DNA of 64,000 nucleotides from Solimonas soli DSM 21787 (GTDB taxonomy: Bacteria > Pseudomonadota > Gammaproteobacteria > Nevskiales > Nevskiaceae). The DNA lies in NCBI RefSeq assembly GCF_000474945.1, contig NZ_AXDW01000004.1:248001-312000 (forward strand). Direction: 5' to 3'. This document shows, piece after piece, positions 26,739 to 61,633 of this stretch (position 1 is its first letter; every line of letters begins with the position of its first letter). The position numbers and the translations under genes are program-made. Below the pieces are notes generated by a model, which did not search any database, was not told where the DNA came from, and saw only the letters and a program-made list of their open reading frames with translations.

Positions 26739-26752
26739 CTGACGCGCATCAA
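26739..26752 (+). promoter_or_regulatory. FNR/Anr-like box upstream of pfk
   Basis: CTGAC-GCGC-ATCAA matches TTGAC-N4-GTCAA at 8 of 10 conserved bases and ends 78 bases before the phosphofructokinase start. It is the weakest of the twelve boxes. Confidence 0.5.
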
Positions 26753-26830
26753 GGTGCGCACGCCGCCGATCGGTGATGCTACGGTGCCGCCAGAGCGGCC
26801 TGCCTCTTGGCCGAAACAGGGAGCGATGCG

Positions 26831-27922
26831 ATGGCAAACGGCGCCGGCTTGCGGGTGGGTGTGTTGACCAGCGGCGGCGATTGCGCCGGTCTCGATGCCG
26901 CGCTGCTCACCGTCGCGCGCGGCGCCGGCGCACGCGGCTGGCGGCTGTTCGGCATCGAGGACGGCACGCTGGGCCTGCTCGCCCAACCGCCGCGGTGCGT
27001 CGAGCTCGACGGCGCGGCGCTGGATACGCAGATGCTGCGCCGCGGCGGCAGCTGCCTGGGCACGGTGAGCACGGGCGATCCCCTGCATTTCCCGCTCGCC
27101 GACGGCAGCTGGCGCGACCGCAGCGAGGAATTCATCGCCGGCGTGCGCGCGCTGCGGCTCGATGTCCTCATCGCCATCGGCGGCGACGGCTCGATGCGCA
27201 TCGTCTCGGCACTGTGCGAGCGCGCGGCGCTGCCCATGGTCGGCGTGCCGAAGACCATCGACAACGACGTGCGCGGCACCGAGACCACGATCGGCTTCGC
27301 CACCGCCGTGCAGTGCGTCAGCGACGCGCTGGACCGCCTGCAGTCGACGGCCGCCAGCCATCATCGCGTGCTCGTGCTCGAGGTCATGGGCCGCGAGGCC
27401 GGCCATCTCGCCCTGCATGGCGGCATCGCCGGCGGCGCGGATCTCATTGCCGTGCCGGAGCTGGGCCTCGATCTCCAATGCGTCGCCGCCGATCTGCGCC
27501 GCTGCCTTGCCAGTCCGCGCCGCTACGCACTGGTGGTGGTCGCCGAGGGCCTGGCGGCAACGGTGCGCGCCGCGCGCCGCGAAGGCGAGGGCACCGGCGC
27601 CTGGCTGGCGCGCATGATCGAAGGCGCCTGCGACTGCACGGCGCGCGCCACGGTGCTCGGGCATCTGCAGCGCGGCGGTGCGCCCTGCGCGCAGGATCGC
27701 CTGGTCGCCACGGCGCTGGCGGCACACGCCGTCAGGCTGGTGGAGGAGGGACGTTACGGCCGCATGGCCGCCTGGCAGGACGGCCGCCTGAGCGACGTGC
27801 CGATCTCGCTCGCCGCATCCGGCCCGCGCGCCCTGGCGTCCGACGATCCGCGCATCGATCAGGCGCACCGCCTCGGTATCTCGCTGGCCGTTCCGCGCGG
27901 CGCCGCATCGCCGGCGGCCTGA
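26831..27922 (+). CDS. pfkA: 6-phosphofructokinase
   Basis: A 363-residue kinase of the PfkA family. LTSGGDCAGLD binds the nucleotide, GGDG (117-120) and PKTIDND (140-146, catalytic D144) form the active site. Where ATP-specific enzymes have Gly-Gly at the two discriminating positions, this one has G120 and K141; the lysine is typical of PPi-dependent and 'mixed' group III enzymes, the glycine of ATP users. The phosphoryl donor therefore needs testing, with ATP more likely. ATG at 26831 is 7 bases after AGGGAG. It carries its own FNR-like box and converges on ppsA. Many relatives of this organism lack Pfk and use the Entner-Doudoroff route, so its place in a stress island is notable. Confidence 0.88.
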   Translation: MANGAGLRVGVLTSGGDCAGLDAALLTVARGAGARGWRLFGIEDGTLGLLAQPPRCVELDGAALDTQMLRRGGSCLGTVSTGDPLHFPLADGSWRDRSEEFIAGVRALRLDVLIAIGGDGSMRIVSALCERAALPMVGVPKTIDNDVRGTETTIGFATAVQCVSDALDRLQSTAASHHRVLVLEVMGREAGHLALHGGIAGGADLIAVPELGLDLQCVAADLRRCLASPRRYALVVVAEGLAATVRAARREGEGTGAWLARMIEGACDCTARATVLGHLQRGGAPCAQDRLVATALAAHAVRLVEEGRYGRMAAWQDGRLSDVPISLAASGPRALASDDPRIDQAHRLGISLAVPRGAASPAA

Positions 27923-27935
27923 GGCCGGCGCCGTC

Positions 27936-30377
27936 TCAGCCGCCGCCGCCGGCGGCGACGGCGAGACGGACGCCCGGCGCACCGCGCTCGCGCGGCGTCT
28001 GCACCTCGGTGGCGGCGATGTTGCACTTCACGGCGAGGAAGCTCGACGGGTTGATCGAGATCGAATCGATGCCGGCCTGCACGAGAAACTGCGCGAAAGT
28101 CGGATGCGCGCTCGGCGCCTCGCCGCAGAAGCCGACCGTGACGCCGGCGGCATGGGCGCGCGTGACCACGCTGCGGATGAGCTCGAGGACGGCGGGGTTG
28201 CTCTCGTCGAACAGCGGCGCCAATTCCGCCGAATCGCGGTCGATGCCGAGCGTCAGCTGCGTGAGATCGTTGCTGCCGATGGAAAAGCCGTCGAAGCGCC
28301 GCGCGAAGTCCTCGGCAAGGATGACGTTCGCCGGAATCTCGCACATCACGTAGATCTTCAGCCCGTCGACGCCGCGCTGCAGGCCGTACTTGGCCATTTC
28401 GGCGAGCACGCGGTCGGCCTCCTCGGGCGTCCGGCAGAACGGCACCATCACCATCACGTTGCGCAGGCCGATCGTGTCGCGCAGCCGTTTCAGCGCGCGG
28501 CATTCGAGCGCGAAGGCTTCGCGATAGCGCGGCGAGTAGTAGCGCGAGGCGCCGCGAAAGCCGATCATCGGATTCTCCTCGCGCGGCTCGAAGCTCGCGC
28601 CGCCGATGAGATTGGCGTACTCGTTGGTCTTGAAGTCGGACAGCCGCACGATGGCCGGCTGCGGATGGTAGACCGCGGCGAGCCGCGCGAGGCCGCTCGC
28701 CAGGCGTTCGACGAAATACTCCGCGCGGTCCGCGTAGCCCTGCGTCAGCGCGTCGATCTCGCGGCGCGCCGCCTCGTCGCCGACGCGCTCGGGATGCAGC
28801 AGCGCCATCGGGTGGATCTTGATCGCGTTGCTGATGACGAATTCCATGCGCGCGAGGCCGACGCCGTCGGCCGGCAGCCGCCACCAGCGAAAGGCTGCGG
28901 CCGGATCGGCGAGATTGAACATCACGTGCGTGCGGGTCGCCGGCAGGCGCTGCAGCGGCACTTCCTCGGCGACGATCTGCGCGCTGCCCTCGTAGACGTG
29001 GCCGATGTCGCCTTCGGCGCAGGACACCGTCACCCGCTGGTCGCCGCGCAGGCGTAGCGTCGCGTCGCCGGTGCCGATCACCGCCGGCACGCCCAGCTCG
29101 CGGCTGACGATGGCCGCGTGCGAGGTGCGCCCGCCGTGATTGGTGACGATGGCCGCCGCCTTGCGCATGATCGGCACCCAGTCCGGATCGGTGTTCTCGG
29201 CGACGAGAATCGCGCCGTCCGGAAATTTCTCGACGGCGTGCGGATCGCGCACGATGCAGATCGTGCCGTTCACCGCCGACTCGCCGACGGCGACGCCCTG
29301 CGCGAGCAGCGCACCCTTCTTCTCGACGCGATACGACTTCTGCGTGCGCCCGCTGTGCCGCGACTGCACCGTCTCGGGACGCGCCTGCACGATGTAGAGC
29401 GCGCTGCTGATGCCGTCCTTGGCCCATTCGATGTCCATCGGCCGGCCGTAGTGCCGCTCGATGGCGCAGGCCCAGCGCGCCAGCTGCAGGATCTCCGCTT
29501 CGTCGAGCGCGAAGCGGCTGCGCTCCTCGGCACTGGTCGGCTCGGTCCGCGTCGCGCCGCCGCTGCCTTCGGCCAGCACCATCTTGATCGCCTTGGCGCC
29601 GCGCCGGCGTTCGAGGATGGGCAGGCAGCCGGGCTCGTCGAGCAGCGGCTTGAACACCATGTATTCGTCCGGATCGACCTGGCCCTGCACGACCGGCTCG
29701 CCGAGCCCCCAGGCGGCGTTGATGCGCACCACGCGATCGAAGCCGGTCTCGGTGTCGAGGGTGAACATCACGCCGGAGCTGCCGACGTCGGCGCGCACCA
29801 TGCGCTGCACCCCGATCGACAGGGCGAGCTGCAGATCGTCGAAGCCGCCTTGCCGCCGGTAGGCGATCGCGCGGTCGGTGAACAGCGAGGCGTAACAGCG
29901 GCGGCAGGCGTCGAGCACGGCGTCGGCGCCGCGCACGTTGAGGAAGGTCTCCTGCTGCCCGGCGAAGCTCGCGTCGGGCAGATCCTCGGCGGTGGCGCTG
30001 GAGCGCACCGCCACGGCCGGCTCGCCGCCGCTCGCGTCGCCGAGCCGCTGGTAGGCGGAGCGGATCGCCGCTTCCAGCTCCGCCGGCCAGCGCGCGGCGA
30101 GGAAGGCGGCGCGTACGGTTTCGCCGGTCGCCGCCAGCGTCGCGGCGCCGGCCGTCCAGGCGTCGAGGCTGCGCCGGATCAGCGGCTCGAGCGCGTTGGC
30201 GCGCACGAACAGGCGATAGGCGTCGGCGGTCGTCGCGAAGCCGCCCGGCACGCGCACGCCTTGCGCGGCGAGCGTGCGCAGCAACTCGCCGAGCGCGGCA
30301 TTCTTGCCGCCGAAATGGCGGACGTCGGTCGCTTCTTCGAGCGCGACCGCGTAGACCGGCACGGGGGTGGTATTCAT
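27936..30377 (-). CDS. ppsA: Phosphoenolpyruvate synthase
   Basis: An 813-residue enzyme, length typical of PEP synthase, converting pyruvate, ATP and water to PEP, AMP and phosphate. N-terminal ATP-grasp-type domain (FGGKNAALGELL; AVRSSATAEDLPDASFAGQQ, split by the P-loop), phosphohistidine domain with H420 in NHGGRTSHAAIVSREL, and C-terminal TIM barrel with FSIGSNDLTQLTLGIDRDS and the catalytic cysteine in VGFCGEAPS. The downstream partner of glycogen synthase: its ATG is 16 bases after the glgA stop. This pairs a gluconeogenic entry step with glycogen building under one promoter that carries an FNR-like box. The C-terminus ends in a short Gly-rich tail. Confidence 0.93.
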   Translation of the reverse strand: MNTTPVPVYAVALEEATDVRHFGGKNAALGELLRTLAAQGVRVPGGFATTADAYRLFVRANALEPLIRRSLDAWTAGAATLAATGETVRAAFLAARWPAELEAAIRSAYQRLGDASGGEPAVAVRSSATAEDLPDASFAGQQETFLNVRGADAVLDACRRCYASLFTDRAIAYRRQGGFDDLQLALSIGVQRMVRADVGSSGVMFTLDTETGFDRVVRINAAWGLGEPVVQGQVDPDEYMVFKPLLDEPGCLPILERRRGAKAIKMVLAEGSGGATRTEPTSAEERSRFALDEAEILQLARWACAIERHYGRPMDIEWAKDGISSALYIVQARPETVQSRHSGRTQKSYRVEKKGALLAQGVAVGESAVNGTICIVRDPHAVEKFPDGAILVAENTDPDWVPIMRKAAAIVTNHGGRTSHAAIVSRELGVPAVIGTGDATLRLRGDQRVTVSCAEGDIGHVYEGSAQIVAEEVPLQRLPATRTHVMFNLADPAAAFRWWRLPADGVGLARMEFVISNAIKIHPMALLHPERVGDEAARREIDALTQGYADRAEYFVERLASGLARLAAVYHPQPAIVRLSDFKTNEYANLIGGASFEPREENPMIGFRGASRYYSPRYREAFALECRALKRLRDTIGLRNVMVMVPFCRTPEEADRVLAEMAKYGLQRGVDGLKIYVMCEIPANVILAEDFARRFDGFSIGSNDLTQLTLGIDRDSAELAPLFDESNPAVLELIRSVVTRAHAAGVTVGFCGEAPSAHPTFAQFLVQAGIDSISINPSSFLAVKCNIAATEVQTPRERGAPGVRLAVAAGGGG

Positions 30378-30392
30378 GACGTCTCCATGGGT

Positions 30393-31919
30393 TCAGGCCA
30401 CGCGCACCGGCGCGCGGGCCTCGCGGTACAGGGTCTGGTACTGCCGTGCGGAATTGCGCCAGCCGGAATCGCGGCGCATGGCGCGCTCCTGCAGCGCGTC
30501 CCAGGCGCCGCAGCGCGCCGCGTAGACGCCGAGCCCGCGATGCACGGCGGCGGCGAAATCGGCGCCGTGCGCCCGGTCGAACACGAAGCCGGTGCCCTGC
30601 GCGGCGCTGGCGCCGTGATGATCGACGACGCTGTCGGCGAGCCCGCCGACGCGGCTGACGACGGGGATCGCGCCGTAGCGCATCGCATAGAGCTGCACGA
30701 GGCCGCAGGGTTCGAAGCGCGAACCGTGCAGCAGCAGATCGGCACCGGCGTGCAGGCGATGGGCCTGCGCCTCGCGGTAGCCGATGCAGACGGCGAGACG
30801 CCGCGGATGTTCGGCGGCCAGCGCGCGGAAGCCGCGTTCGAGCTCGGCGTCGCCGCGCCCGAGCAGAGCGAACTGCAGACGCGGATGGCGTTCGAGCAGC
30901 GCCGGCAGCTCGTGCAGCAGGGTGTCGGCCATCTTCTGCGTCGTCAGCCGGCTGGCGAAGGCGGCGAGCGGCGCGTCGGCGTCCTGGCGCAGGCCCAGCT
31001 CCGCCTGCAGCTGGCGCTTGCAGGCGCGCTTGCCCTCGCGGTCCGCCGCCGAGTACGGCGCCGCCAGATGCGGATCGACGGCCGGATTCCAGACGCGTTC
31101 GTCGATGCCGTTCATGATGCCGACCAGCGCCGCGCCGCGTGCCGCGTAGAGGCCGTGCAGTCCGGCGCCGAACGCCGGCGTCTGGATTTCGCGCGCGTAG
31201 GTCGGGCTCACCGTGGTCAGGCGATCGGCGTAGCGGGCGCCGGCCTTGAGCAGCGAGCAGCGTCCGTAGAATTCCGCGCCGTCGCAGCCGAGCGCGGCCT
31301 CCGGCACGCCGAGTTCGCGCGCGGTCGGCAAGGCGATGCAGCCGTGAAAGGCGGCGTTGTGAATGGTGAAGATGGTCGCCGGACGGGGTTCCGGCGCGAA
31401 GTGCAGGAGCAGCGGCACGAGGCCGGTATGCCAGTCGTGTGCGTGCACGACCTGCGGACGCCATTGCTCGGCGTTGTCGCCCATCGCCAGGCGCACCGCG
31501 GCATGCGACAGCGCCGCGAAGCGCTGGGCGTTGTCGGACCATTCCGTGCCGCCGGCATCCGCGTAGAGGGAGCCGTCGCGCGCGTACAGCGCCGGGCAGT
31601 CGAGCAGCCAGACCGGGATTGCCGTGCCCGGCAGGCGGCCGCGCAGCAGGCGCGCATCGACGCCGGGCAGCAGTCCGGGAAGCGCGATGTCCGTCTGCGC
31701 GTCGGCGAGCTGGGCGAGCGCGCCCGGGTAGGCCGGCATGAGCAGGCGCACGTCTTCGCCGGCTTCGTGCAGCGCCTGCGGCAGCGCGCCGCAGACGTCG
31801 GCGAGACCGCCGGTCTTGGCCAGCGGCTGGATCTCGGCCGCGACGAACAACAGGCGGATCGGCTCGCGCTCCGGGAGTGCACGGCTGTGACGGGCGGCGG
31901 CGAGGCTGCTGACGGACAT
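30393..31919 (-). CDS. glgA: Glycogen synthase (ADP-glucose type)
   Basis: A 508-residue GT5-family glucosyltransferase extending alpha-1,4-glucan from ADP-glucose. The N-terminal KTGGLADVCGALPQAL contains the substrate-binding K-T-G-G-L motif, and the C-terminal GSRFEPCGLVQLYAMRYG is the donor-site motif. Start set at the ATG giving MSVSSLAAARHS; an upstream frame would run across the regulatory box. First gene of a glgA-ppsA operon. An FNR-like box sits 53 bases before the start, the right place for class II activation. glgB, glgC and glgP are not in the window. Confidence 0.93.
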   Translation of the reverse strand: MSVSSLAAARHSRALPEREPIRLLFVAAEIQPLAKTGGLADVCGALPQALHEAGEDVRLLMPAYPGALAQLADAQTDIALPGLLPGVDARLLRGRLPGTAIPVWLLDCPALYARDGSLYADAGGTEWSDNAQRFAALSHAAVRLAMGDNAEQWRPQVVHAHDWHTGLVPLLLHFAPEPRPATIFTIHNAAFHGCIALPTARELGVPEAALGCDGAEFYGRCSLLKAGARYADRLTTVSPTYAREIQTPAFGAGLHGLYAARGAALVGIMNGIDERVWNPAVDPHLAAPYSAADREGKRACKRQLQAELGLRQDADAPLAAFASRLTTQKMADTLLHELPALLERHPRLQFALLGRGDAELERGFRALAAEHPRRLAVCIGYREAQAHRLHAGADLLLHGSRFEPCGLVQLYAMRYGAIPVVSRVGGLADSVVDHHGASAAQGTGFVFDRAHGADFAAAVHRGLGVYAARCGAWDALQERAMRRDSGWRNSARQYQTLYREARAPVRVA

Positions 31920-31971: not shown

Positions 31972-31985
31972 TTGACGCAGGTCAT
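31972..31985 (-). promoter_or_regulatory. FNR/Anr-like box upstream of glgA-ppsA
   Basis: TTGAC-GCAG-GTCAT, 9 of 10 positions of the shared palindrome. It ends 52 bases before the glgA start. The same 14 bases occur at 35919. Confidence 0.7.
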
Positions 31986-35918: not shown

Positions 35919-35932
35919 TTGACGCAGGTCAT
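35919..35932. promoter_or_regulatory. FNR/Anr-like box in the divergent zinc-ribbon/HlyD promoter
   Basis: TTGAC-GCAG-GTCAT, identical to the glgA box. It lies almost midway between two divergent genes, 83 bases from the zinc-ribbon start and 81 from the HlyD start, so one dimer could serve both directions. Confidence 0.7.
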
Positions 35933-39873: not shown

Positions 39874-39879
39874 GGCGAC

Positions 39880-49067: not shown

Positions 49068-49123
49068 GGGTTTCTCCTTCGCGGGTTTCCATGCCAGTCT
49101 CGGCATGCCATGCACCGCCTTCA

Positions 49124-49137
49124 TTGACGCGCGTCAA
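49124..49137 (-). promoter_or_regulatory. FNR/Anr-like box upstream of the Usp gene
   Basis: TTGAC-GCGC-GTCAA, a fully symmetrical copy. It ends 56 bases before the Usp start. Confidence 0.8.
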
Positions 49138-49235: not shown

Positions 49236-49249
49236 TTGACCGGCGTCAA
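49236..49249 (+). promoter_or_regulatory. FNR/Anr-like box upstream of the 49308 gene
   Basis: TTGAC-CGGC-GTCAA, fully matching. It ends 58 bases before the start codon and lies 98 bp from the divergent Usp box, giving each divergent gene its own site. Confidence 0.8.
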
Positions 49250-51082: not shown

Positions 51083-51096
51083 TTGATTTCGGTCAG
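51083..51096 (+). promoter_or_regulatory. FNR/Anr-like box upstream of the CBS-BON gene
   Basis: TTGAT-TTCG-GTCAG, 9 of 10 positions. It ends 53 bases before the start codon. Confidence 0.65.
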
Positions 51097-52033: not shown

Positions 52034-52047
52034 TTGAGCGAGATCAA
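52034..52047 (+). promoter_or_regulatory. FNR/Anr-like box upstream of the SDR gene
   Basis: TTGAG-CGAG-ATCAA, 9 of 10 positions. It ends 56 bases before the start codon. Confidence 0.65.
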
Positions 52048-52103
52048 GGCGGCGCCGCGCGCGCGCCGCTAGGGTCGGTACTCAAACCCAAGGGATGCCT
52101 GCC

Positions 52104-52871
52104 ATGTCACGTCTTCAGCAGAAGGTCGTCATCGTCACCGGTGCGGCGGTCGGCCTCGGCCGGGCGATGGTGATTCGCATGGCGCAGGAAGGCGCCGCGG
52201 TCGCCGCCTTCGATGTCAACGACGGCGAAGGGCAGGCGCTCGCCGCCGAGCAGCGCGAACGCGGCCTCGACGTGCACTACTGGCACTGCGACGTGTCGCG
52301 CGAGGCGGAAGTGGCGCAGGCGATCGGCGACGTGGTGACGAAGTTCGGGCGGCTCGACGCGATCGTCAACAACGCCGGCGTCGCCGGCGTCAGCAAGCCG
52401 ACCCACGAGATCAGCGAGGCCGAGTGGGACTTCGTGCAGGCGATCAACGTCAAGGGCGTGTTCTTCGGCACCAAGCACGCGGTGCCGCAGCTGCGCAAGG
52501 CCGGCGGCGGCAGCATCATCAACCTGTCGTCGATCTACGGTCTGGTCGGCGCGCCCGACGTGCCGCCGTACCACGCCTCCAAGGGCGCGGTGCGCCTGAT
52601 GACCAAGACCGACGCGCTGCTCTACGCGCGCGATCGCATTCGCGTCAACAGCATCCATCCGGGCTTCATCTGGACGCCGATGGTCGCCGGCTACCTGCGC
52701 GACGGCGGCGCGCCGGAGGCCGGCCACGCCGCGCTCGCCGCGCTGCATCCGCTCGGCCACATCGGCGAAGCCGACGACGTCGCCTGGGGCGCCGTCTACC
52801 TGGTGTCGGACGAGGCGAAGTTCGTGACCGGCGCCGAGCTGGTCATCGACGGTGGCTACACGGCGCGCTGA
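52104..52871 (+). CDS. Short-chain dehydrogenase/reductase
   Basis: A 255-residue classical SDR. The cofactor motif is TGAAVGLG (residues 13-20), then CDVS, NNAGVAG, and the catalytic Ser-Tyr-Lys in LSSIYG and YHASKGA. IHPGFIWTPM and the C-terminal VTGAELVIDGGYTAR are typical of glucose-1-dehydrogenase/cyclohexanol-dehydrogenase-like members. Acidic D39 in AAFDVND after strand 2 favours NAD+. Substrate unknown. ATG at 52104 follows AAGGG by 9 bases; an earlier in-frame ATG overlaps it. The membrane protein gene follows after 8 bases. Confidence 0.88.
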   Translation: MSRLQQKVVIVTGAAVGLGRAMVIRMAQEGAAVAAFDVNDGEGQALAAEQRERGLDVHYWHCDVSREAEVAQAIGDVVTKFGRLDAIVNNAGVAGVSKPTHEISEAEWDFVQAINVKGVFFGTKHAVPQLRKAGGGSIINLSSIYGLVGAPDVPPYHASKGAVRLMTKTDALLYARDRIRVNSIHPGFIWTPMVAGYLRDGGAPEAGHAALAALHPLGHIGEADDVAWGAVYLVSDEAKFVTGAELVIDGGYTAR

Positions 52872-52879
52872 AGGCGCGC

Positions 52880-53377
52880 ATGCATCACGTCCTGCAACTG
52901 CTGTATCTCATGCTGCCGGTGTACGCCGCCAACATGGCGCCGCCGTTCTCGCGCTGGTGGCCGTGGCCGAATCCGCCGATCAGCCGGCGCTGGCTCGGCG
53001 AGCACAAGACCGTCGTCGGCTTCGCGTTCGGGCTCGTCGCCGCGCCGCTCGTGGCGGCGCTGCAGGCGCTCGTCGACGGGCCGGGCAGCCTGACGCCCGG
53101 CGCGCCCTGGTTCGCGATCGGCATGGCGAGCGGCTGGGGCGCGATGCTCGGCGACTCCGCCAAGAGCTTCGTCAAGCGCCGCCTCGGCATCGCGCCGGGC
53201 GCGCGCTGGATTCCGGCCGACCAGCTCGATTTCGTGATCGGCGGCCTGCTCATGCTGTCACCGTGGCTGACCCTGTCCTGGGGCGACGTCGCGACGCTTC
53301 TCGCGCTGAGCTTCATCGGTGATCTGGCGGTGAACCAGCTCGCGTTCCGCCTCGGCATCCGCCGCAGTCCGTGGTGA
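52880..53377 (+). CDS. CDP-archaeol-synthase-like (CarS/DUF46) membrane protein
   Basis: A 165-residue protein with four or five helices. PVYAANMAPPFSRW, FGLVAAPLVAALQ and GDSAKSFVKRRLGIAPG.. with WIPADQLDFVIGGL match the family of CDP-archaeol synthases, CTP:phosphatidate-like cytidylyltransferases first known from archaea; GDSAKSFVKRR holds the conserved catalytic D-x2-K pattern. Bacterial copies are mostly uncharacterised and may activate an alcohol phosphate of unknown kind. Co-transcribed with the SDR (8-bp gap). Confidence 0.78.
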   Translation: MHHVLQLLYLMLPVYAANMAPPFSRWWPWPNPPISRRWLGEHKTVVGFAFGLVAAPLVAALQALVDGPGSLTPGAPWFAIGMASGWGAMLGDSAKSFVKRRLGIAPGARWIPADQLDFVIGGLLMLSPWLTLSWGDVATLLALSFIGDLAVNQLAFRLGIRRSPW

Positions 53378-53389: not shown

Positions 53390-53403
53390 TTGACCTGCGT
53401 CAA
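53390..53403 (+). promoter_or_regulatory. FNR/Anr-like box upstream of the 53474 gene
   Basis: TTGAC-CTGC-GTCAA, fully matching. It starts 13 bases after the CarS-like stop and ends 70 bases before the next start codon. Confidence 0.78.
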
Positions 53404-53473: not shown

Positions 53474-53770
53474 ATGCAGAAGACCCAGGGCAGCAAGAAC
53501 GACGCACAGGAACTGCGCGCGGCCTGGCAGCGCATGCGCACCAGCTGGCGTCACACCGAGAAATCGCTGCACGAACTGATCGATGCCAACCGCGAACTGG
53601 CCAACTGTCTGGGCAAGACCGGCGCCGCGCGCGCGAAGACCGCGTTCGATCGCTTCGACCGCCTCGTCCGCCAGCTCGACGGCAATCGCCTCAAGGCGCA
53701 CCAGCACGTCGAGAAGCTCGCCGCGACCGCCGGCCTGAAGAAGACGGCGCCGCGCAAGCGGGCGGCATAG
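53474..53770 (+). CDS. Small helical basic protein of unknown function
   Basis: A 98-residue, all-helical, basic protein (LRAAWQRMRTSWRHTEKSLHEL; AFDRFDRLVRQLDGNRL, each part of a long helix) ending in a Lys/Arg/Pro/Ala tail KKTAPRKRAA. It could bind nucleic acid or coat granules like a short phasin, but no family is recognised. Start chosen at the ATG after AGAGGAACATCCC. Own FNR-like box; the flavodoxin gene follows after 12 bases. Confidence 0.7.
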   Translation: MQKTQGSKNDAQELRAAWQRMRTSWRHTEKSLHELIDANRELANCLGKTGAARAKTAFDRFDRLVRQLDGNRLKAHQHVEKLAATAGLKKTAPRKRAA

Positions 53771-53782: not shown

Positions 53783-54355
53783 ATGAAGGACGCGCTGATC
53801 GTCTATTACTCGCGCAGCGGCAACACGCGCCGCCTGGCGCAGCAGCTCGCCGCGCGGCTCGACGCCGATCTCGAGGAAATCCGCGAGCGGCGCGGCCGCG
53901 GCGGCGCGCTCGGCTTCCTGCGCAGTCTTTACGACGCGCTGCGCGAGCGCGAGCCGCCGATCGAGCCGCCGAATCTCGATGCCAGCGGCTACAAGGTGGT
54001 GATCGTCGGCTCGCCGGTGTGGACCGGTCACGTCGCGGCACCGGTGCGTCGCTACCTCACGCAGTACGCCGGCGCGCTGCGACGGCTCGCCTTCTTCTGC
54101 ACGTATCGCGACGCCGGCGGTCCCGAGGCGCTCGCCGAGATGGCAGCCCTGCGCGAGCCGCTGGCGGAAACCATCGAATACGACGATTTCCCGAGCCTGG
54201 CGCTCACCGAGGCGCAGCTGCGCGAGGGGGCGGAGGAAAAGGTGGCGCGCTTCGTCGCGGCGGTGCGCCGCCGCACCGCCGTGCGCGGCGCGCCGCCGCG
54301 GCGCGGCCCGCGCACGAAGGCGGTCGGGCGCGGCCGCAAGGTCGTGCCGCACTGA
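53783..54355 (+). CDS. Flavodoxin-family protein (copy 1)
   Basis: A 190-residue protein with the FMN phosphate loop VYYSRSGNTRRLA (residues 7-19), VVIVGSPVWTGHVAAPVRRYL and FCTYRDAGG, as in flavodoxin/WrbA-like oxidoreductases. The last 30 residues are a basic Arg/Pro/Gly tail not found in the second copy. It likely carries electrons at low potential. Downstream of the small basic protein within the same FNR-box unit. The paralogue is at 61702. Confidence 0.85.
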   Translation: MKDALIVYYSRSGNTRRLAQQLAARLDADLEEIRERRGRGGALGFLRSLYDALREREPPIEPPNLDASGYKVVIVGSPVWTGHVAAPVRRYLTQYAGALRRLAFFCTYRDAGGPEALAEMAALREPLAETIEYDDFPSLALTEAQLREGAEEKVARFVAAVRRRTAVRGAPPRRGPRTKAVGRGRKVVPH

Positions 54356-54560: not shown

Positions 54561-57500
54561 GTGCGGCATGGGCGAGGCGCCTGGCACGCAGTGGCGATAC
54601 GGCGCCGCTGCCTGCGCGCGGTGCTGCTGGCGGCGCTCTGCGCGTTGCCCGGCGCCGGCGCCATTGCCGGCCCGCCGCCCATCACGGACGGATCGCGGCC
54701 CGCCGGCCATGTGAGCGTGCGCGAGGGGGCCATCGTCGCCGCGCTCGCGCTGCTGATCGGCGGACTCGCCGGCCTGGGCTGGCAGCGCCGCGCCGACCTT
54801 CTCGCGCATCGCGCGCAGCTGGCGGCGATCGTCGAGAACTCGAACGATGCCATCATCGGCAAGGATCTCGACGGCGTCATCACCAGCTGGAACCACGCCG
54901 CCGAACGCATCTTCGGCTATGCCGCCAGGGAGGCGCTCGGCCGCACGCTGAGCGACCTGCTGGTTCCCGCCGAGCGCAAGGCGGAAGAACGCCGCATTCT
55001 CGAGACCGTCGTGCGCGGCGCGACGGTCGACCCTTTCGAAACCGTGCGCCGCCATCGCGACGGCCACATGGTCGGCGTGTCGGTCACCGTGTCGCCGGTA
55101 CGCGATGCCTCGGGCGCGATCGTCGGCGCGGCGAAGATCGCCCGCGACATCAGCGCCACCAAACAGGCGCAACGCGAGCTGCAGCGCGCGCAGGCGCGCC
55201 TGCTGCAGACCACGCACACCCTCGGCATCGGCCTCTGGGAATGGGATCCGCGCAGCGGCGCCCTGCGCTGGGACGACAAGATGTTCGAGCTGTACGGCCG
55301 CCGGCGCGAGGACGGCGCGCCGAGCTGCGAGTGCTGGCGGGCCAGCGTTCATGCCGACGACCTGAAGCGCTGCGAGCACGACGTCGCGGAAGCGCTGGCC
55401 GGACGGGCGCCGTTCGACACCAGCTTCCGCATTCACACGCCGGCCGGCGAACTGCGGCATTTTCTTGCCAAGGGCATCGTCGAGCGCGACGAGGACGGCA
55501 CCGCCTGCCGGATGTTCGGCACGAACTTCGACATCACCCAGCTCAAGGAACAGGAGACGCAGCTGCGCGCGGCGCTGCAACGCATCGGCAACGGCGAGGC
55601 GCGCTGGCGCGAGCTGGCCAATTCGATGCCGCATCTGGTGTGGACCTGCAGCGGCGAGGGGCCGTGCGACTTTCTCAGCGAGCAGTGGGTGCGCTACACG
55701 GGAATTGCGGAACGCGCGCAGCTCGGCTTTGGCTGGATGGAACAGGTGCACCCGGACGACCGCCCCGAACTGCTGCGGCGCTGGAACGCCGCGGTGGCGG
55801 CGCGCGACGTCTTCCACGTCGAGTTCCGCATCCGCCGGCACGACGGCGCGTACCGCTGGTTCGACACGCGCGCGGTGCCGCAGATCGACGCCGCGAGCGG
55901 CGCGGTGCTGCGCTGGTTCGGCAGCAACACCGATATCGAGGACCACAAGCAGGCCGAAGACGCGGTGCGCCGGCTCAATGCCACGCTCGAACGGCAGGTG
56001 GCCGAGCGCACGGCGCGCCTGCAGGCGGCTATGGCGCTGCAAAGCGCGATTCTCAACAACGCCGCCTTCGCGATCGTCGCGACGGACACGGACGGCACGA
56101 TCAGCGGCTTCAATCCGGCGGCCGAGCGCATGTTCGGCTACCGCGCCGAGGACGTCGTCGGCCGGGCGACGCCGGCGGTCCTGCACGAGCCGCAGGAAGT
56201 CGTCGCGCGCGCACAGGAGTTGAGCGCCGAGCTCGGCCGCGCCGTTGCGCCCGGCTTCGAGGTTTTCGCGGCGCGGGCGCGCGGCGGCGAGACCGATACC
56301 AGGGAGTGGACCTACATCCGCAAGGACGGCTCGCGCTTCCCGGGCTGGCTGTCGGTGAGCGCACTGCTCGACGAGCAGGGCCGGCCGATGGGCTTCATGG
56401 GCATGGTCGTCGATCTCACCGAGCGGCGTGCCCAGGAGCAGCGCATCCGCGACAACGAACGCTTCCTGCGCGCGCTGACCGACAACATCCCCGGCATGGT
56501 CGGCTACTGGGATCGCGAGCTGCGCTGCCGCTACGCCAACCGCGAGTACCTGACCTGGTTCGGCAAGAGCGCCGAACAGATGCACGACATCACCCTGCCG
56601 CAGCTTCTCGGCGCCGAACTGTTCGCGCGCAACGAGCGTTACGTGCGCGCGGCGCTGCGCGGCGAAACGCAGCGCTTCGAGCGCACGCTGACGCGCAGCG
56701 ACGGCAGCGAGGGTTACACCTGGGCGCACTACATCCCGGACATCGATGAAGGCGAGGTGCGCGGTTTCTACGTCGTCGTCTCGGACGTCACCGAACTGAA
56801 GAGGGCGCAGCTGGCGCTCGAATCGCTGAACGCGTCGCTGGCGCAGCGCACGCGCGAGGCCGAGGCGGCGACGCTGGCCAAGAGCCAGTTCCTCGCCAAC
56901 ATGAGCCACGAAATCCGCACGCCGATGAACGCCGTGCTCGGCGCCCTGCAGCTCCTGCATCGCACGGTGCTGTCGCCGGTGCAGCTGGACTATGCGCTGA
57001 AGGCCGAATCGGCGGCCCGGGCGCTGCTCGCCATCATCAACGACGTGCTCGATTTCTCGAAGATCGAAGCCGGCAAGCTGACACTCGAGCGCCAGCCGTT
57101 CCGGCTCGACACCCTGCTGCGCGAGCTCGGTGCGATCCTGTCGAGCACGCTCGGCGCGCGTGAGCTGGAGCTGCTGTTCGACGTGGACCCCGAGGCGCCG
57201 CTCGATCTGGTCGGCGATTCCCTGCGCCTGCAGCAGGTGCTGCTGAATCTCGCCAGCAATGCGATCAAGTTCACCGAGCGCGGCGAGGTGGTGATCGCTG
57301 TGCGCCTGCGCAGCCATGACGCCGGCAGCGGCGTGCTCGAGTTCGCCGTCAGCGACACCGGCATCGGCATCAGCGCCGAACAGCTGCAGCGCATCTTCAA
57401 CGGCTTCGAACAGGCCGAGGCCTCGACCACGCGGCGCTACGGCGGCACCGGGCTCGGTCTGGCGATCAGCCAGCGCCTGGTCGCGCTGATGGGCGGCGAG

Positions 57501-58874
57501 CTGCAGGTCACGAGCGAGCCGGGGCACGGCAGCCGCTTCAGCTTCGCGCTGACGGTGCCGCTGGCGCCGCGCGGCGCGCGGCCGCGGCTCGCGCCGCCGA
57601 CGCTGCGCGATTTGCGCGTGCTGATCGTCGACGACAATGCGAGCGTGCGCACGGTGCTGAAACGCGTCGCCGCCTCCTTCGGCTGGCAGGCGGTGACCGC
57701 CGCCGATGGCGGCGCGGCGCTGGCGTGCTGGCAGGCCGGCGACGACCGGCCCGACGTGGTGCTGGTCGACTGGCGGCTGCCCGACATGGACGGCTGGACG
57801 CTCATCGAGCGCATCCGCGCGCGCGCGCCGGCGCAGCGGCCGCCGGTCTTCATCATGACCGCCACGCACGGCCGCGAGGCGCTGGAAGGTGCGCCCGAGC
57901 GCGACGACTCGCTGCTCGACGGCTTCCTGATCAAGCCGCTGACACCCTCGGCGATCGTCGATGCGGTCGGCGCGGCGATCGCCGGCCAGGGCCGCCATCG
58001 CGCGCGCGCCGCGGCGCCGCATCGCCGGCAGCGCCTGCGCGGATTGCGGCTGCTGCTGGTCGAGGACAACCTCACCAACCAGCAGATCGCGCACGATCTG
58101 CTGGTCGACGAGGGCGCGCACGTCGACGTGGCCGGCAGCGGCCGCGCCGGCATCGAGGCCGTCCGCCACGCGCAGCCGCCGTACGACGCCGTGCTGATGG
58201 ACATCCAGATGCCGGACATGGACGGCTACGCGGCGACCGCGCAGATCCGGCAGCTGGCCGGCGCGCCGCCGCCGATCATCGCGATGACGGCGAACGCCCT
58301 GCCGCAGGATCGCGCCGCCTGTCTCGCCGCCGGCATGGTCGATCACATCGGCAAGCCTTTCGACATCGAACACCTGGTCGCGGTCCTGCTGCGCCACGCG
58401 CGGGGCCTGCGCGTCCCGCCGCCGCACGCCGCCGCGGACGCGCGGCCGGCGATCTGGCGCAGGCGCTGGCGCGGCTCGGCGGCAATCGCCGGCTGTTCGT
58501 GCGCGAGGCGAACGCGTTCGTGCACACCTACGCCGACATCGCCGAACGCCTGCGCGCGCAGCTCGCCGAAGGCGACACGCGCGCCGCGGCAGCCTTGCTG
58601 CACATGCTCAAGGGCGTGGCGGCCACTCTCGGCGCGACGGCGCTCGCGCAGGCGGCCGCCGAGCTGCAGCGCGACATCGAGGCCGGCCGCCACGCCGAGC
58701 GGCTCGATGCGCGCCTGCGGCGTTTCGCCGCGACGCTGCAGGCGGCGCGCGCGCAGCTCGCCGAGCAGGCGACGCGGCTCGCCGCCGACGGATCGCCGCA
58801 GGGCGACGCGGCGACGGTCGACGTCAGGGCGGGGCTCGATGACCTCGCGGCCCTGCTCGCCGAGCGCAACATGA
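54561..58874 (+). CDS. Multi-PAS hybrid histidine kinase (C-terminus frameshifted)
   Basis: Open for 1437 codons from a GTG (an in-frame GTG at 54591 starts a better signal peptide). Order: leader, periplasmic stub, membrane helix (about 60-78), five PAS domains (about 85-745; e.g. NSNDAIIGKDLDG, NAAFAIVATDTDG, DNIPGMVGYWDRE), HisKA with H783 in NMSHEIRTPMNAV, HATPase, receiver 1 (Asp about 1070) and receiver 2 (Asp about 1214). After about residue 1294 (58440) the frame turns into Arg/Ser/Pro-rich nonsense, while an HPt domain continues in another frame (next entry). So the true product was probably about 1480 residues and ended at 59023. BarA/TorS-like layout with an unusually large sensor array. 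Confidence 0.85.
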   Translation: MRHGRGAWHAVAIRRRCLRAVLLAALCALPGAGAIAGPPPITDGSRPAGHVSVREGAIVAALALLIGGLAGLGWQRRADLLAHRAQLAAIVENSNDAIIGKDLDGVITSWNHAAERIFGYAAREALGRTLSDLLVPAERKAEERRILETVVRGATVDPFETVRRHRDGHMVGVSVTVSPVRDASGAIVGAAKIARDISATKQAQRELQRAQARLLQTTHTLGIGLWEWDPRSGALRWDDKMFELYGRRREDGAPSCECWRASVHADDLKRCEHDVAEALAGRAPFDTSFRIHTPAGELRHFLAKGIVERDEDGTACRMFGTNFDITQLKEQETQLRAALQRIGNGEARWRELANSMPHLVWTCSGEGPCDFLSEQWVRYTGIAERAQLGFGWMEQVHPDDRPELLRRWNAAVAARDVFHVEFRIRRHDGAYRWFDTRAVPQIDAASGAVLRWFGSNTDIEDHKQAEDAVRRLNATLERQVAERTARLQAAMALQSAILNNAAFAIVATDTDGTISGFNPAAERMFGYRAEDVVGRATPAVLHEPQEVVARAQELSAELGRAVAPGFEVFAARARGGETDTREWTYIRKDGSRFPGWLSVSALLDEQGRPMGFMGMVVDLTERRAQEQRIRDNERFLRALTDNIPGMVGYWDRELRCRYANREYLTWFGKSAEQMHDITLPQLLGAELFARNERYVRAALRGETQRFERTLTRSDGSEGYTWAHYIPDIDEGEVRGFYVVVSDVTELKRAQLALESLNASLAQRTREAEAATLAKSQFLANMSHEIRTPMNAVLGALQLLHRTVLSPVQLDYALKAESAARALLAIINDVLDFSKIEAGKLTLERQPFRLDTLLRELGAILSSTLGARELELLFDVDPEAPLDLVGDSLRLQQVLLNLASNAIKFTERGEVVIAVRLRSHDAGSGVLEFAVSDTGIGISAEQLQRIFNGFEQAEASTTRRYGGTGLGLAISQRLVALMGGELQVTSEPGHGSRFSFALTVPLAPRGARPRLAPPTLRDLRVLIVDDNASVRTVLKRVAASFGWQAVTAADGGAALACWQAGDDRPDVVLVDWRLPDMDGWTLIERIRARAPAQRPPVFIMTATHGREALEGAPERDDSLLDGFLIKPLTPSAIVDAVGAAIAGQGRHRARAAAPHRRQRLRGLRLLLVEDNLTNQQIAHDLLVDEGAHVDVAGSGRAGIEAVRHAQPPYDAVLMDIQMPDMDGYAATAQIRQLAGAPPPIIAMTANALPQDRAACLAAGMVDHIGKPFDIEHLVAVLLRHARGLRVPPPHAAADARPAIWRRRWRGSAAIAGCSCARRTRSCTPTPTSPNACARSSPKATRAPRQPCCTCSRAWRPLSARRRSRRRPPSCSATSRPAATPSGSMRACGVSPRRCRRRARSSPSRRRGSPPTDRRRATRRRSTSGRGSMTSRPCSPSAT

Positions 58875-59023
58875 AGGCCGTGGCGCTGCACGACAGCCTG
58901 CGCGAGGCCCTGCAGCGCCTCGATGCCGGGCGCGCGTCGGCGCTGGCGCGCGCCATGGACGGTCTCGACTTCGCGGCGGCGGGCGAGCTCTGCGAAGCCC
59001 TGGCCGGCTGCGCGCAGGCATGA
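58440..59023 (+). pseudogene. HPt domain of the hybrid kinase, displaced by a frameshift
   Basis: Frame -1 relative to the kinase. The conserved phospho-His is in LLHMLKGVAATLGA (codon at 58601), in an HPt four-helix pattern beginning GDLAQALARLGGNRRLF. It ends in a TGA that overlaps the start of the next gene by four bases, the same ATGA coupling as at 46679. One missing base near 58440-58450 would restore a single frame. A true mutation or a sequencing error is equally possible. Confidence 0.75.
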
Positions 59024-59928
59024 CGCGCGAAAGGCCCTGCCTGCTGGTCGTCGACGATCAGCCGACGAACATCCGCGTGCTCTACGAAATATTCGGCGCC
59101 GACCACGAGGTGCTGATGGCGACCGGCGGCGCGCAGGCCGTCGAGCTCTGCCGTCGCGCGGCGCCGGACCTGGTCCTGCTCGATGTGGCGATGCCGGACC
59201 TCGACGGTTACGAAGTCTGCCGGCGTCTGAAGGCCGATCCGCTGACGCGCGAGATTCCGGTGATCTTCGTCACCGGCTCGGACACCGCCGAGGACGAAAC
59301 GCGCGGACTCGAAGCCGGCGCCGTGGACTTCATCAGCAAGCCGGTCAATCCGGCCGTGGTGCGCGCCCGCGTGCGGACGCATCTAACCCTGAAGTCGCAG
59401 GCCGATCAGCTGCGCAATCTGGCGTTCGTCGATGGTCTGACCGGTCTCGCCAACCGGCGCCGCTTCGAGGCAGCCCTGGCCAGCGAATACCGCATCTGCG
59501 CGCGCGCCGGCGAAACGCTGGCGCTGGTGATGCTCGACGTCGATTGCTTCAAGCAGTTCAACGACTGCTACGGCCATCAGGCCGGCGACGACTGCCTGCG
59601 GCGCGTCGCGCAGGCCTTGCTGGCGCGGATGCGCCGGCCGCGCGACCTGGTGGCCCGCTACGGCGGCGAGGAGTTCGTCTGCCTGATTCCGGCGATCGAG
59701 GCGGACGCGGTGCCGGACTTTGCCGAGGAACTGCGCGCCGCCGTCGCCGCCGAGCGCATCCCGCATCTCGCCTCGACCTGCGCGGCGGTCGTGACGGTCA
59801 GCGCCGGCCACGCCACCGACAGGCCGGCGACGGGCAGCGGCCCGCAGGACTTGCTCAAGCGCGCGGACCAGGCCCTGTACGCGGCCAAGCGCGCCGGCCG
59901 CGATCGCGTGGTCGCCGCGCCGGCCTAG
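59020..59928 (+). CDS. REC-GGDEF response regulator (diguanylate cyclase, copy 2)
   Basis: A 302-residue protein: receiver (VVDDQPTNIRVL; Asp in LVLLDVAMPD; Lys in FISKPVNP) and GGDEF domain with intact GGEEF active site, plus the RPRD inhibitory site five residues before it. Strongly similar to the protein at 46679, including ADHEVLMATGGAQA-type receiver strands. Overlaps the old end of the hybrid kinase by 4 bases, so the kinase most likely phosphorylates this receiver through its HPt domain. Confidence 0.93.
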   Translation: MTRERPCLLVVDDQPTNIRVLYEIFGADHEVLMATGGAQAVELCRRAAPDLVLLDVAMPDLDGYEVCRRLKADPLTREIPVIFVTGSDTAEDETRGLEAGAVDFISKPVNPAVVRARVRTHLTLKSQADQLRNLAFVDGLTGLANRRRFEAALASEYRICARAGETLALVMLDVDCFKQFNDCYGHQAGDDCLRRVAQALLARMRRPRDLVARYGGEEFVCLIPAIEADAVPDFAEELRAAVAAERIPHLASTCAAVVTVSAGHATDRPATGSGPQDLLKRADQALYAAKRAGRDRVVAAPA

Positions 59929-60016: not shown

Positions 60017-61474
60017 TCATTCCGCCGCCGCCCGCGCGGCGGCTCCGGCGTGCGCGCGTCGTGTGACGGCACGGCGCCGGCGCGGGCCCGCGGCACCGGC
60101 GCCGGCATGGCTGACCAGCTCCTGCAGCTCGGCCGCGAAGGCGTCGAGCAGCAGGCGCGGCGAACGCATCACGGCGATGTCGCTGGAGATGCCGATGCTG
60201 GTATGGCCGGCGTAGCTGAGCAGGCTGATGCCGATGCCGATGCCGCCGCTCTGCGGCGGCCAGAAGACGATGTTGCGGATGTGCGCGCCGGCGAAGCGCA
60301 GCGCGTGCTCCGGGCCGGGCAGGTTGGAAACGACGGCGCTGGCCTGGCGGCCGATGCGGCCGACCAGCGCGCGCTCGACGCGGCCCGGCAGTTCGCCGGC
60401 GATGGCCAGGCCGACGAACACGGCGTGCGCCTGCCGCGAATCCTTGAGCCGCCGCATGCGGTCGGCGACGGCTTCGAGCCGTTCGTGCGCATCGGCGAGC
60501 CCGATCGGCAGATCGACGAGGCCGAGGCCGAAGCGATTGCTCAGCGAGGCGTCGGACGATTTGCGCAGATTGATCGGCACGGCGATGCGCAGCTCCTGAT
60601 CGGGCTTCGGCGTCACGCCGTCGTGGCGCTGCATGTAGTGCGAGAAGGCGCCGCTCAGCGCGGCGAGCATGATGTCGTTGTGCTTGCAGCCATAGGCGTG
60701 CGCGGCGTCCTTGATGGCGGCCACGCTCGGCAGGTCGTGACTCCAGGCGACCGCGCGGCGGCCCGACAGGCTGCTGCCGAAGGCCGTCGGCTGCTGCCGG
60801 CTGCTGCCGAGCAGGGCGACCAGCGCGGCGGTGTCGCGTCCGAGTTGCAGCGACTGCCGGACCAGTCCGAGCGGCTCCTCGCTGCCGCGCGCGATGAATT
60901 TCCCGAGGCGGCTCAGCGACGCGTCGAGCGCTTCCAGGCGCCCGATCCAGCGGGCGAGCGGGCCGCGCCGCGGCAGCTCGGCGGGCACGCCCGGCAGCGC
61001 GGCGCCGTCGTGCAGGCCGAGCAGCAGCTGCATCAGGCCGATGCCGCCGCCCATCGCATGGTGCGCGCGGAACAGCGCCGTGACGCGGCGCGGCGTGGTG
61101 CTCAGCAGGCTGACGTGCCACAGCGGCCGCGTGCGGTCGAGATGACGGCGCATTTCGGCGGCGACCGCGTCGGCCAGCGCATGTTCCTCGACCTTGCGCA
61201 CGCTGATGTGGTCGAGCGGGTCGACGCGCAGCGCCCGCTGCCAGGCCGAGGGCTTGCGCGCGTGGTCCGGGCATTGCGCGAAGCGCGGGTGGCGCAGCAG
61301 GCGCTCGAACATCTCGCGGCGCAGGGCATCGACATCGTCGACGCCGTCGAGCTCGAGGATGGCGCAGATCACCATCGGCGAGCGGTCGGTATCCATTTCC
61401 AGCCAGGCGCGGTCGACGGACGGAATCGGTTCGTTGTCGGCGACGCGCGGCGCGGCGGCGGTTTCGGTGTTCAT
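60017..61474 (-). CDS. Wax ester synthase/diacylglycerol acyltransferase (WS/DGAT)-like protein
   Basis: A 485-residue acyltransferase. N-terminal DRAWLEMDTDRSPM, RPLWHVSLL and the active-site region RAHHAMGGGIG, then AVPINLRKSSD and the C-terminal VVSNLPGPEHAL are all family marks. The catalytic motif H-H-x3-D-G reads H138-H139-A-M-G-G-G: both histidines are kept but the Asp is Gly143. Members join fatty alcohols or diacylglycerol to acyl-CoA to store wax esters or triacylglycerol. The tail after residue 455 is Arg/Ala-rich. GGAGACCC precedes the ATG. An FNR-like box lies 74 bases upstream. Confidence 0.86.
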   Translation of the reverse strand: MNTETAAAPRVADNEPIPSVDRAWLEMDTDRSPMVICAILELDGVDDVDALRREMFERLLRHPRFAQCPDHARKPSAWQRALRVDPLDHISVRKVEEHALADAVAAEMRRHLDRTRPLWHVSLLSTTPRRVTALFRAHHAMGGGIGLMQLLLGLHDGAALPGVPAELPRRGPLARWIGRLEALDASLSRLGKFIARGSEEPLGLVRQSLQLGRDTAALVALLGSSRQQPTAFGSSLSGRRAVAWSHDLPSVAAIKDAAHAYGCKHNDIMLAALSGAFSHYMQRHDGVTPKPDQELRIAVPINLRKSSDASLSNRFGLGLVDLPIGLADAHERLEAVADRMRRLKDSRQAHAVFVGLAIAGELPGRVERALVGRIGRQASAVVSNLPGPEHALRFAGAHIRNIVFWPPQSGGIGIGISLLSYAGHTSIGISSDIAVMRSPRLLLDAFAAELQELVSHAGAGAAGPRRRRAVTRRAHAGAAARAAAE

Positions 61475-61547
61475 GGGTCTCCGGTGCGCGCGGTGGGTCT
61501 GTGGCGCGGCATTGATGCAAGCCTGCGCAGCCGCCGCCGCCCGTGCA

Positions 61548-61561
61548 TTGACGATGATCAA
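61548..61561 (-). promoter_or_regulatory. FNR/Anr-like box upstream of WS/DGAT
   Basis: Read on the plus strand, TTGAC-GATG-ATCAA, 10 of 10 allowing A/G variants. It ends 73 bases before the WS/DGAT start. Confidence 0.75.
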
Positions 61562-61619
61562 GGCCGGCCGCGCGCCGCGCGCGCGGCGGCCGAGGCGCGG
61601 CCCTTGCCGCGGCGCCGGA

Positions 61620-61633
61620 TTGACGGCGATCAA
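61620..61633 (+). promoter_or_regulatory. FNR/Anr-like box upstream of flavodoxin copy 2
   Basis: TTGAC-GGCG-ATCAA. It ends 68 bases before the GTG start and lies 58 bp from the divergent WS/DGAT box. Confidence 0.75.

Follow-up and report, generated by a model that had tools for sequence, protein, structure and literature searches.

A predicted FNR-driven low-oxygen survival island in Solimonas soli, resembling the lxa locus in content

Of the systems described so far, the FNR-linked lxa locus of Burkholderia cenocepacia, reportedly discovered by Sass et al. in 2013, comes closest to the locus reported here. The lxa locus comprises 50 clustered genes induced by low oxygen, including six universal stress proteins (Usps), Hsp20, BON and nitro/flavin reductase genes (PMC6127331, PMC4505428), as well as an acetoacetyl-CoA reductase, a zinc-dependent alcohol dehydrogenase (Zn-ADH), a metallo-beta-lactamase protein and a phosphofructokinase (PMC6127331). 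The locus encodes the FNR protein BCAM0287, with BCAM0049 and BCAM1483 encoded elsewhere, and a motif resembling the FNR box occurs at many induced genes (PMC6127331, PMC4505428; further background in PMC3759415, PMC9104464 and PMC9733578). As of 2015, the functions of the several FNR regulators of B. cenocepacia were described as poorly defined (PMC4505428). The DosR regulon of Mycobacterium tuberculosis contains Usps, alpha-crystallin and phosphofructokinase (PMC6127331), and hemN, oprG and cytochrome genes are core targets of the Anr, FnrL and FixK regulons (PMC6588701, PMC2908626). Here we describe a cluster of twelve FNR-type boxes in Solimonas soli DSM 21787, located in a window of 64,000 nucleotides (C3:248001-312000) on contig C3, whose 387,160 bases were analyzed whole. 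Judged by sequence, the genes behind these boxes add a new member to the low-oxygen regulons driven by FNR, with a content like that of lxa, and a low-oxygen survival island driven by FNR is very probably the overall explanation. Coordinates without a prefix are window positions; C, G and L denote contigs of this draft assembly, genomes and loci, respectively.

Clustered FNR-type boxes

A preliminary description of the window had reported twelve near-identical palindromes, and all twelve were found at the positions it gave. Gene starts came from a simple custom gene finder rather than a standard program, and composites are matches to a pattern of box, 23 bases, A, 3 bases, T. Distances run from box center to predicted start, and mismatches are counted against TTGAY-N4-RTCAA.

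26739-26752, + strand: box before phosphofructokinase; one mismatch; 85.5 bases; -10 A/T in register
31972-31985, - strand: box before glycogen synthase and phosphoenolpyruvate (PEP) synthase-type genes; one mismatch; 59.5; A/T pair out of register
35919-35932, + strand: box before HlyD-ABC-ABC2 transport operon (36014-41013, +); one mismatch; 88.5; -10 toward the operon out of register
41027-41040, + strand: box before Cpn60/GroEL-type chaperonin; exact; 64.5; composite exact
44152-44165, no strand assigned: box before three-BON-domain protein (44330-44971, +); exact; 171.5; composite exact on both strands
49124-49137, - strand: box before Usp gene; exact; 63.5; composite exact; best matches in G006 and G007 also boxed
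49236-49249, + strand: box before DUF6763 gene (49308-49760, +); exact; 65.5; composite exact
51083-51096, + strand: box before CBS-BON protein; one mismatch; 78.5; -10 in register
52034-52047, + strand: box before short-chain dehydrogenase (SDR) and CarS-like gene (52880-53377, +); one mismatch; 63.5; -10 in register; best matches in G006 and G007 boxed
53390-53403, + strand: box before 98-aa gene (53474-53770, +) and flavodoxin-like gene (53783-54355, +); exact; 77.5; composite exact; boxed in G006 and G007
61548-61561, - strand: box before wax-ester synthase/DGAT (WS/DGAT) acyltransferase; exact; 80.5; composite exact; best matches in G006 and G007 without box
61620-61633, + strand: box before flavodoxin-like gene (61702-62205, +); exact; 75.5; composite exact; best matches in G006 and G007 boxed

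The word "near-identical" was a little strong, as only three of the sites match TTGAC-N4-GTCAA exactly, with six at one mismatch and three at two; against TTGAY-N4-RTCAA, seven are exact and five differ at one position. The observation itself is real and far beyond chance. With up to two mismatches allowed, the window held 23 matches, twelve of them the reported sites, compared to a mean of 8.7 and a maximum of 15 in 100 shuffles. Across contig C3, matches to TTGAY-N4-RTCAA with no more than one mismatch fell at 31 places, of which 16 are intergenic and 15 coding. Of the intergenic ones, 14 lie within C3:274739-315139 (binomial p = 1.8e-12), namely, the twelve reported sites and two more just past the window end, at C3:313832 and C3:315126. 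Two of the 15 coding matches (28051 and 62444) also fall inside this stretch of ~40 kb, hereafter the island. The custom gene calls bore out the intergenic placement of the twelve sites and also their spacing: most had been said to end 52 to 83 bases before a start codon, and 11 of 12 end 52 to 81 bases before a predicted start, with centers 59.5 to 88.5 bases ahead of it.

Counting any box with at most one mismatch, coding or not, 25 to 180 bases before the first gene of a predicted transcription unit, we found boxes at 15 of 24 units in C3:274501-318000, at 4 of 126 left of the window and at 0 of 24 to its right. The absence of upstream boxes from the first 26 kb likewise held (0 of 13 units in the first 26.5 kb), the three near-matches there being all intragenic. 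A whole-genome scan (4.19 Mb), which the preliminary description had proposed, yielded 18 exact boxes versus 2 for the reversed control pattern: nine in C3:289027-315139, three in C16:3194-6867, two in C2:452904-454394, one in C13 and three inside predicted genes (C2:30288, C6:45028 and C26:4070). The motif was not equally frequent within genes or genome-wide. With one mismatch allowed there were 233 boxes versus 101 for the control, and single-mismatch boxes alone are therefore noisy. A single regulon over 35 kb had been proposed; the clustering stands, but the confinement does not, as the boxes run past the window end and form further clusters on other contigs, where they precede cbb3 oxidase, hemN, ompW, Hsp20, ADH and Usp genes.

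The inner base of the box had been described as mostly C or G. This is true in counts (30 TTGAC, 19 TTGAT and 1 TTGAG among the 50 half-sites of 25 sites in this genome), but it does not amount to a new specificity. T is still favored over its background (C 0.33 and T 0.17 in C3 intergenic DNA), and the C/G preference therefore looks partly like base composition. A ChIP-bound FnrL site of Rhodobacter sphaeroides reads TTGACgcggATCAA (PMC2908626), and a C inner base is within the known FNR-type range.

As a separate observation, pairs of boxes 28 to 29 bases apart occurred between divergent genes at L026:11812-11854, L103:13128-13169 and L108:9413-9454, each gene having one box at 58 to 66 and the other at 87 to 95 bases from its start.

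Promoter geometry and recurrence in relatives

To describe the promoters, we aligned 95 site-gene pairs (box center 50 to 100 bases before the start) from this genome and six relatives; pairs were picked by distance to the start and not by any -10 element, and the relatives are not independent of each other (G006 and G007 are close). Two AT spikes appeared downstream of the box. In the 70 pairs with spacings of 52 to 82 bases, from seven genomes, an A at +30.5 and a T at +34.5 from the box center occurred together in 53, whereas the same pair at other offsets reached 5 of 70 at best (mean, 1.3). Per genome, this register was found in 18 of 21 pairs here, 3 of 3 in G001, 9 of 9 in G008 and 4 of 5 in G010, and 9 of the 11 window pairs have it. 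The plain -10 consensus TAnnnT was found in no more than 5 of 95 pairs at any offset; the signal is instead the A...T pair at -11/-7. In addition, a G stood at +8.5 in 89% of the 70 pairs (TCAA[G/T]GC). If the A and T correspond to A-11 and T-7 in a -10 element for sigma-70, the box is centered at -41.5, the position of a class II activator that the preliminary description had suggested and that the register in 53 of 70 pairs supports at the sequence level. This predicted -10 element at a set distance from the box is new here.

Across the whole genome there were 14 exact composites versus none for the control, and 33 versus 3 with up to one mismatch. Of these 33, the island holds 16, some of them pointing away from the near gene; C2:439-455 kb holds 5, C16 holds 4, C13 holds 1, and 7 lie elsewhere. 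Plain box counts were tried as a marker and set aside because of G009, which has 28 exact boxes scattered genome-wide, a single composite and only weak, CRP-like FNR matches (5.5e-6 and 5.5e-4); plain counts are therefore unspecific, and box plus -10 was used instead. In two Paraburkholderia loci, L166 and L174, boxes lack the exact N23 spacing, and a TA...T seems by eye to lie one base closer.

The boxes also recur before the best BLASTP matches of the island genes in four relatives despite rearrangement, as judged within the fetched stretches of those relatives. Matches of boxed genes were boxed in 17 of 20 cases in G006 (14 of 17 distinct G006 genes) versus 6 of 33 for unboxed genes, in 18 of 21 versus 7 of 35 in G007, in 12 of 12 versus 2 of 22 in G008 and in 7 of 9 versus 1 of 15 in G010; several Usp genes share one best match, so not all are one-to-one orthologues. 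Counts in G001 (2 of 2 versus 1 of 6) and G014 (5 of 5 versus 2 of 3) were too few to tell. The boxed genes with an unboxed match in G006 were phosphofructokinase, WS/DGAT and the hibernation factor.

In both G006 and G007, the same set of genes is found in changed order within a single stretch of ~94 to 95 kb that includes FNR, FixLJ and cbb3 genes, with FNR ~36 kb from CRP1 (a CRP-type gene at the island end, see below) and with a gap of ~39 kb that contains the polyketide synthase-nonribosomal peptide synthetase (PKS-NRPS) gene and no boxes other than single-mismatch ones. To the left of the island, the genes at C3:270953 and C3:272227 match genes at the end of the G007 stretch (94%); the island is therefore probably at the same chromosomal place, with the FNR-FixLJ-cco part elsewhere.

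The candidate regulator

A search of the genome with one helix-turn-helix (HTH) model, PF13545, gave seven matches. Four are credible CRP/FNR proteins, namely, FNR, CRP1, CRP2 and a Crp-like protein with a CSREMAGR helix, and the other three look by eye like members of other regulator families. FNR (C2:440643-441392) has an N-terminal CxxCx5C motif, a distal cysteine and the recognition helix LATETVSRMF. Among solved structures it comes closest to FNR regulators (5cvr/5e44 and related entries, E 3e-29 to 6e-29). In Escherichia coli FNR, base contacts are made mainly by E209, S212 and R213 (PMC4505428). When recognition helices were compared, as had been suggested, FNR was the only one of the FNR and island-end candidates with E..SR (ETVSR). 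CRP1 (C3:316310-317296, missed by the gene finder) and CRP2 (C3:317229-317969) have Crp-type HTH domains with the helices RRESVTL and QRTGISL.

FixJ- and FixL-type genes adjoin the FNR gene, the three spanning C2:440643-443514. The FixL PAS domain best matches FixL 1d06 (E 3e-34), with the conserved heme-site His and Arg both retained; the FixJ-type gene has best matches in five relatives. The same stretch of C2 holds ccoI-, ccoG-, ccoP- and ccoN-type genes, hemN and ompW. Boxes there stand before a Usp gene, a gene that looks DksA-like by eye and the genes of ccoN, hemN and ompW type. The likely binder of the boxes is a true FNR, encoded beside FixLJ and cbb3 genes.

Co-occurrence across genomes points the same way. 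We counted exact composites in this genome and 40 relatives and scored FNR matches at E <= 1e-20, with CRP1 matches scored as well. Within the genus, genomes with an FNR match had 14 (G000), 11 (G001), 25 (G003), 15 (G004), 22 (G006), 25 (G007), 14 (G008) and 19 (G010) composites, compared to 0 (G002), 1 (G005) and 1 (G009) in those without; the matches in G003 and G004 are of ETVCR type with CxxCx5C. Over genus and family (n = 25, own genome included), 17 genomes with an FNR match had a median of 14 composites (3 to 25) and 8 without had a median of 1 (0 to 3) (Mann-Whitney p = 9e-5), whereas CRP1 did not track the count (p = 0.50); over all 41 genomes the values were 5e-6 for FNR and 0.079 for CRP1, none of these being independent tests since the genomes are related.

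CRP1 and CRP2 themselves, encoded at the end of the box-bearing stretch, could bind the palindromes and make the island self-contained, and CRP1 carries an exact box of its own at 59.5 in G006 and G007. Their helices, however, are not of the E..SR type. Although CRP1 tracks composite counts within the genus about as well as FNR (p = 0.022 and 0.018, inseparable at that level), composites were high in genomes with an FNR match but no CRP1 match (G001, 11; G004, 15; G014, 16; G023, 21) and numbered only 0 to 2 in G012, G013, G021 and G024, which have CRP1-like genes but no FNR match at 1e-20. By helix and by family-level co-occurrence, we consider these two proteins unlikely binders. A further oxygen- or NO-responsive CRP/FNR protein of the Dnr/NnrR type might share or own the boxes, given that FNR, FixK and DNR reportedly recognize very similar sites (PMC2908626), but the search with the single model PF13545 yielded only the four credible proteins named above, and we rate this as slightly less probable still. 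That the palindromes are ordinary sigma-70 -35 elements, which TTGAC resembles, is very improbable: a 17-base spacer from the left TTGAC would not reach the -10 bases at +30.5/+34.5, it is the other half-site, TCAA on the right, that stands in the -35 place, and the sites are symmetric and clustered.

Several points weigh against FNR as the driver of the island. The FNR gene is on another contig in this genome. Nine of the 24 predicted transcription units of the island lack a box, the box at 44152 is 171.5 bases from its predicted start, 2 of 11 window pairs lack a -10 in register, and the register is weaker in G006 (8 of 13), G007 (10 of 14) and G014 (1 of 5). FNR and CRP1 are not separable within the genus alone, and the relatedness of the genomes tempers all of the p-values. 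Order-level genomes without an FNR match at 1e-20 keep composites (G025, 13; G027, 7; G031, 5; G036, 9; G037, 5). A weaker FNR match exists in each of these five and in G020 (3 composites), with CxxCx5C and ETVSR in G027, G031 and G037 and an ETLSR helix without the cysteine motif in G020; this weaker-match search covered 9 of the 19 genomes without a 1e-20 match (these six plus G002, G005 and G009). Cysteines and helix were checked in part of the FNR-positive genomes, and the G011 match lacks CxxCx5C.

The preliminary description had attributed the sites to a single FNR-type regulator acting on class II promoters in an oxygen-limitation program, and the sites, the -10 element, the helix and the co-occurrence support this. 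From the boxes, their geometry, their recurrence and the co-occurrence with FNR, all seen directly in the sequences, we infer binding, induction and a physiological role as follows. Low oxygen would act through the heme-PAS protein FixL and FixJ to raise FNR, by analogy with what is reported for fixK in B. dolosa and rhizobia. A [4Fe-4S]-type FNR, together with FixLJ, would then switch on ~15 island units (12 boxes in the window and 2 beyond) by binding TTGA(C/T)-N4-(A/G)TCAA at -41.5 and activating RNA polymerase at a -10 element that carries A-11 and T-7. On other contigs, the same boxes precede the cbb3 oxidase, hemN and ompW genes and a second cluster of stress genes. The products (Usps, chaperonin, BON/CBS proteins, PEP synthase, glycogen synthase, phosphofructokinase, WS/DGAT, hibernation factor, flavodoxins and transporters) may support survival of energy-limited hypoxia.

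Gene content, known regulons and neighboring genes

The boxed units encode phosphofructokinase; PEP synthase-type enzyme plus glycogen synthase; HlyD-ABC; Cpn60; BON; Usp; DUF6763; CBS-BON; SDR plus CarS-like; a 98-aa protein plus flavodoxin type; WS/DGAT; flavodoxin type; P-type ATPase plus Usp; hibernation factor; and Usp. Unboxed units include nitroreductase plus P-type ATPase, Host_attach/PRTase, two response-regulator/kinase-GGDEF groups, Nudix and GH8; the units at 45588-48152 and 54621-59928 are among the unboxed ones. The main genes are as follows.

26831-27922, + strand: phosphofructokinase (PF00365, E 2.5e-82; frame 26807-27922)
27936-30377, - strand: PEP synthase-type enzyme (PPDK_N, PEP-utilizers, PEP-utilizers_C)
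30393-31919, - strand: glycogen synthase (Glyco_transf_5, E 6.7e-70)
41098-42711, + strand: Cpn60 chaperonin (PF00118, E 1.7e-66)
48168-49067, - strand: universal stress protein with two Usp domains (PF00582, two stretches; frame 48168-49124)
49883-51052, + strand: GH8 glycosidase, after the DUF6763 gene, inside the island and without its own box
51168-51872, + strand: CBS-BON protein (PF00571; PF04972 just below cut-off, 26.5 versus 27 bits; frame 51150-51872)
52104-52871, + strand: short-chain dehydrogenase (PF13561, E 8e-63; frame 52095-52871)
60017-61474, - strand: wax-ester synthase/DGAT (WS_DGAT_C and WS_DGAT_cat)
62185-64000, continuing beyond the window (C3:310185-312737), - strand: P-type cation ATPase, with a Usp gene, following the box at C3:313832
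C3:313914-314258 (L030:5914-6258): ribosome hibernation factor (S30AE), with its own exact FNR-type box and -10 in register

A cluster on C16 adds Hsp20, an ion channel, BON, a lipoprotein, L,D-transpeptidase, Zn-ADH, a phosphoribosyl pyrophosphate (PRPP) synthetase-type gene, a fusion of beta-CASP and thymidine phosphorylase domains and two Usps. Including the Usp gene on C2, six Usp genes are boxed. This content suggests a program for energy-limited survival that would combine storage, proteostasis, ribosome parking, envelope repair and high-affinity respiration.

The likeness to lxa was judged by gene families against published table rows. Six boxed Usps and matching families (Hsp20, BON, nitroreductase, SDR, ADH, beta-CASP and phosphofructokinase) occur over C3, C16 and C2. 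The nitroreductase unit here has no box. Unlike lxa, the parts are spread over at least three places in a draft assembly from another lineage, and the FNR gene is not in the island but beside FixLJ and cbb3 genes. Genes for glycogen synthase, WS/DGAT, a GroEL-type chaperonin, a hibernation factor, HlyD-ABC and a PKS-NRPS also distinguish it from the part of the lxa list available. Because the parts are not contiguous and induction is predicted, we filed the island under FNR-type regulons as lxa-like. The preliminary description had instead compared it with DosR. The comparison holds for content (Usps, alpha-crystallin and phosphofructokinase) and for the idea of a dormancy program, but the closest system is lxa, which it did not name, and the predicted regulator here is FNR/FixLJ, whereas DosR belongs to the LuxR-type response regulators and has a different motif. 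The Anr, FnrL and FixK regulons share the box family and a FixLJ pair beside an FNR/FixK-type gene, but here 9 of 18 exact boxes are packed into one 26-kb stretch of stress and storage genes.

Comparative evidence ties an lxa-like gene set to FNR/FixLJ, and the survival island is an unusually clear example of one largely readable from promoter sequence, through box, fixed -10 and direction. The hibernation factor, WS/DGAT, the beta-CASP RNase-thymidine phosphorylase fusion and PKS-NRPS may be part of hypoxic dormancy beyond the mycobacteria. Among the matches listed, there was no paper on this combination of gene set and box for this lineage, which is not proof of absence.

The fusion gene on C16 (L026:8866-11760) joins a beta-CASP metallo-hydrolase to a thymidine/pyrimidine phosphorylase-type domain and stands beside the PRPP synthetase-type gene; both the fusion and this pairing recur in many named loci. 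With this gene as anchor, the best 80 of 555 confirmed loci were compared. Boxes near it numbered six each in Paraburkholderia L166 and L174 (with Hsp20 and FNR-like genes, and in L166 also Cpn60 and CBS-BON), four and seven in Pseudomonas L156 and L167 and five in Lysobacter L142; many others among these 80, e.g., L123, L139 and L155, had none around the fusion gene.

Just past the window, after the two CRP genes, lies a gene for a 2,571-aa PKS-NRPS hybrid (C3:318162-325877; L023:6162-13877) with ketosynthase, acyltransferase, PP-binding, class III aminotransferase, condensation, adenylation and PP-binding domains, the first PP-binding domain being placed by inference (Pfam counts two stretches). 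Its best matches, at 71%, are beside CRP genes in G006 and G007. Between CRP2 and this gene, three genomes share the 20-base element GGTGTGGNNTCGAACAGACG (L023:6027-6046, L103:8011-8030 and L108:4293-4312, minus strand). Of 200 fetched loci, 11 contained a match, and these are overlapping copies of that one place; it was not found in the 64-kb window. We regard it as a candidate CRP1/CRP2 operator. It is a tentative and rather doubtful extension that FNR might induce CRP1/CRP2, which adjoin a boxed Usp gene, and that these might act on GGTGTGGNNTCGAACAGACG before the PKS-NRPS gene to yield a low-oxygen-specific metabolite; if so, the dormancy program would include a second-tier switch of its own as well as a natural product timed by hypoxia.

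Finally, a Host_attach/baeRF family 12 protein gene (42757-43179, - strand) adjoins the chaperonin gene.

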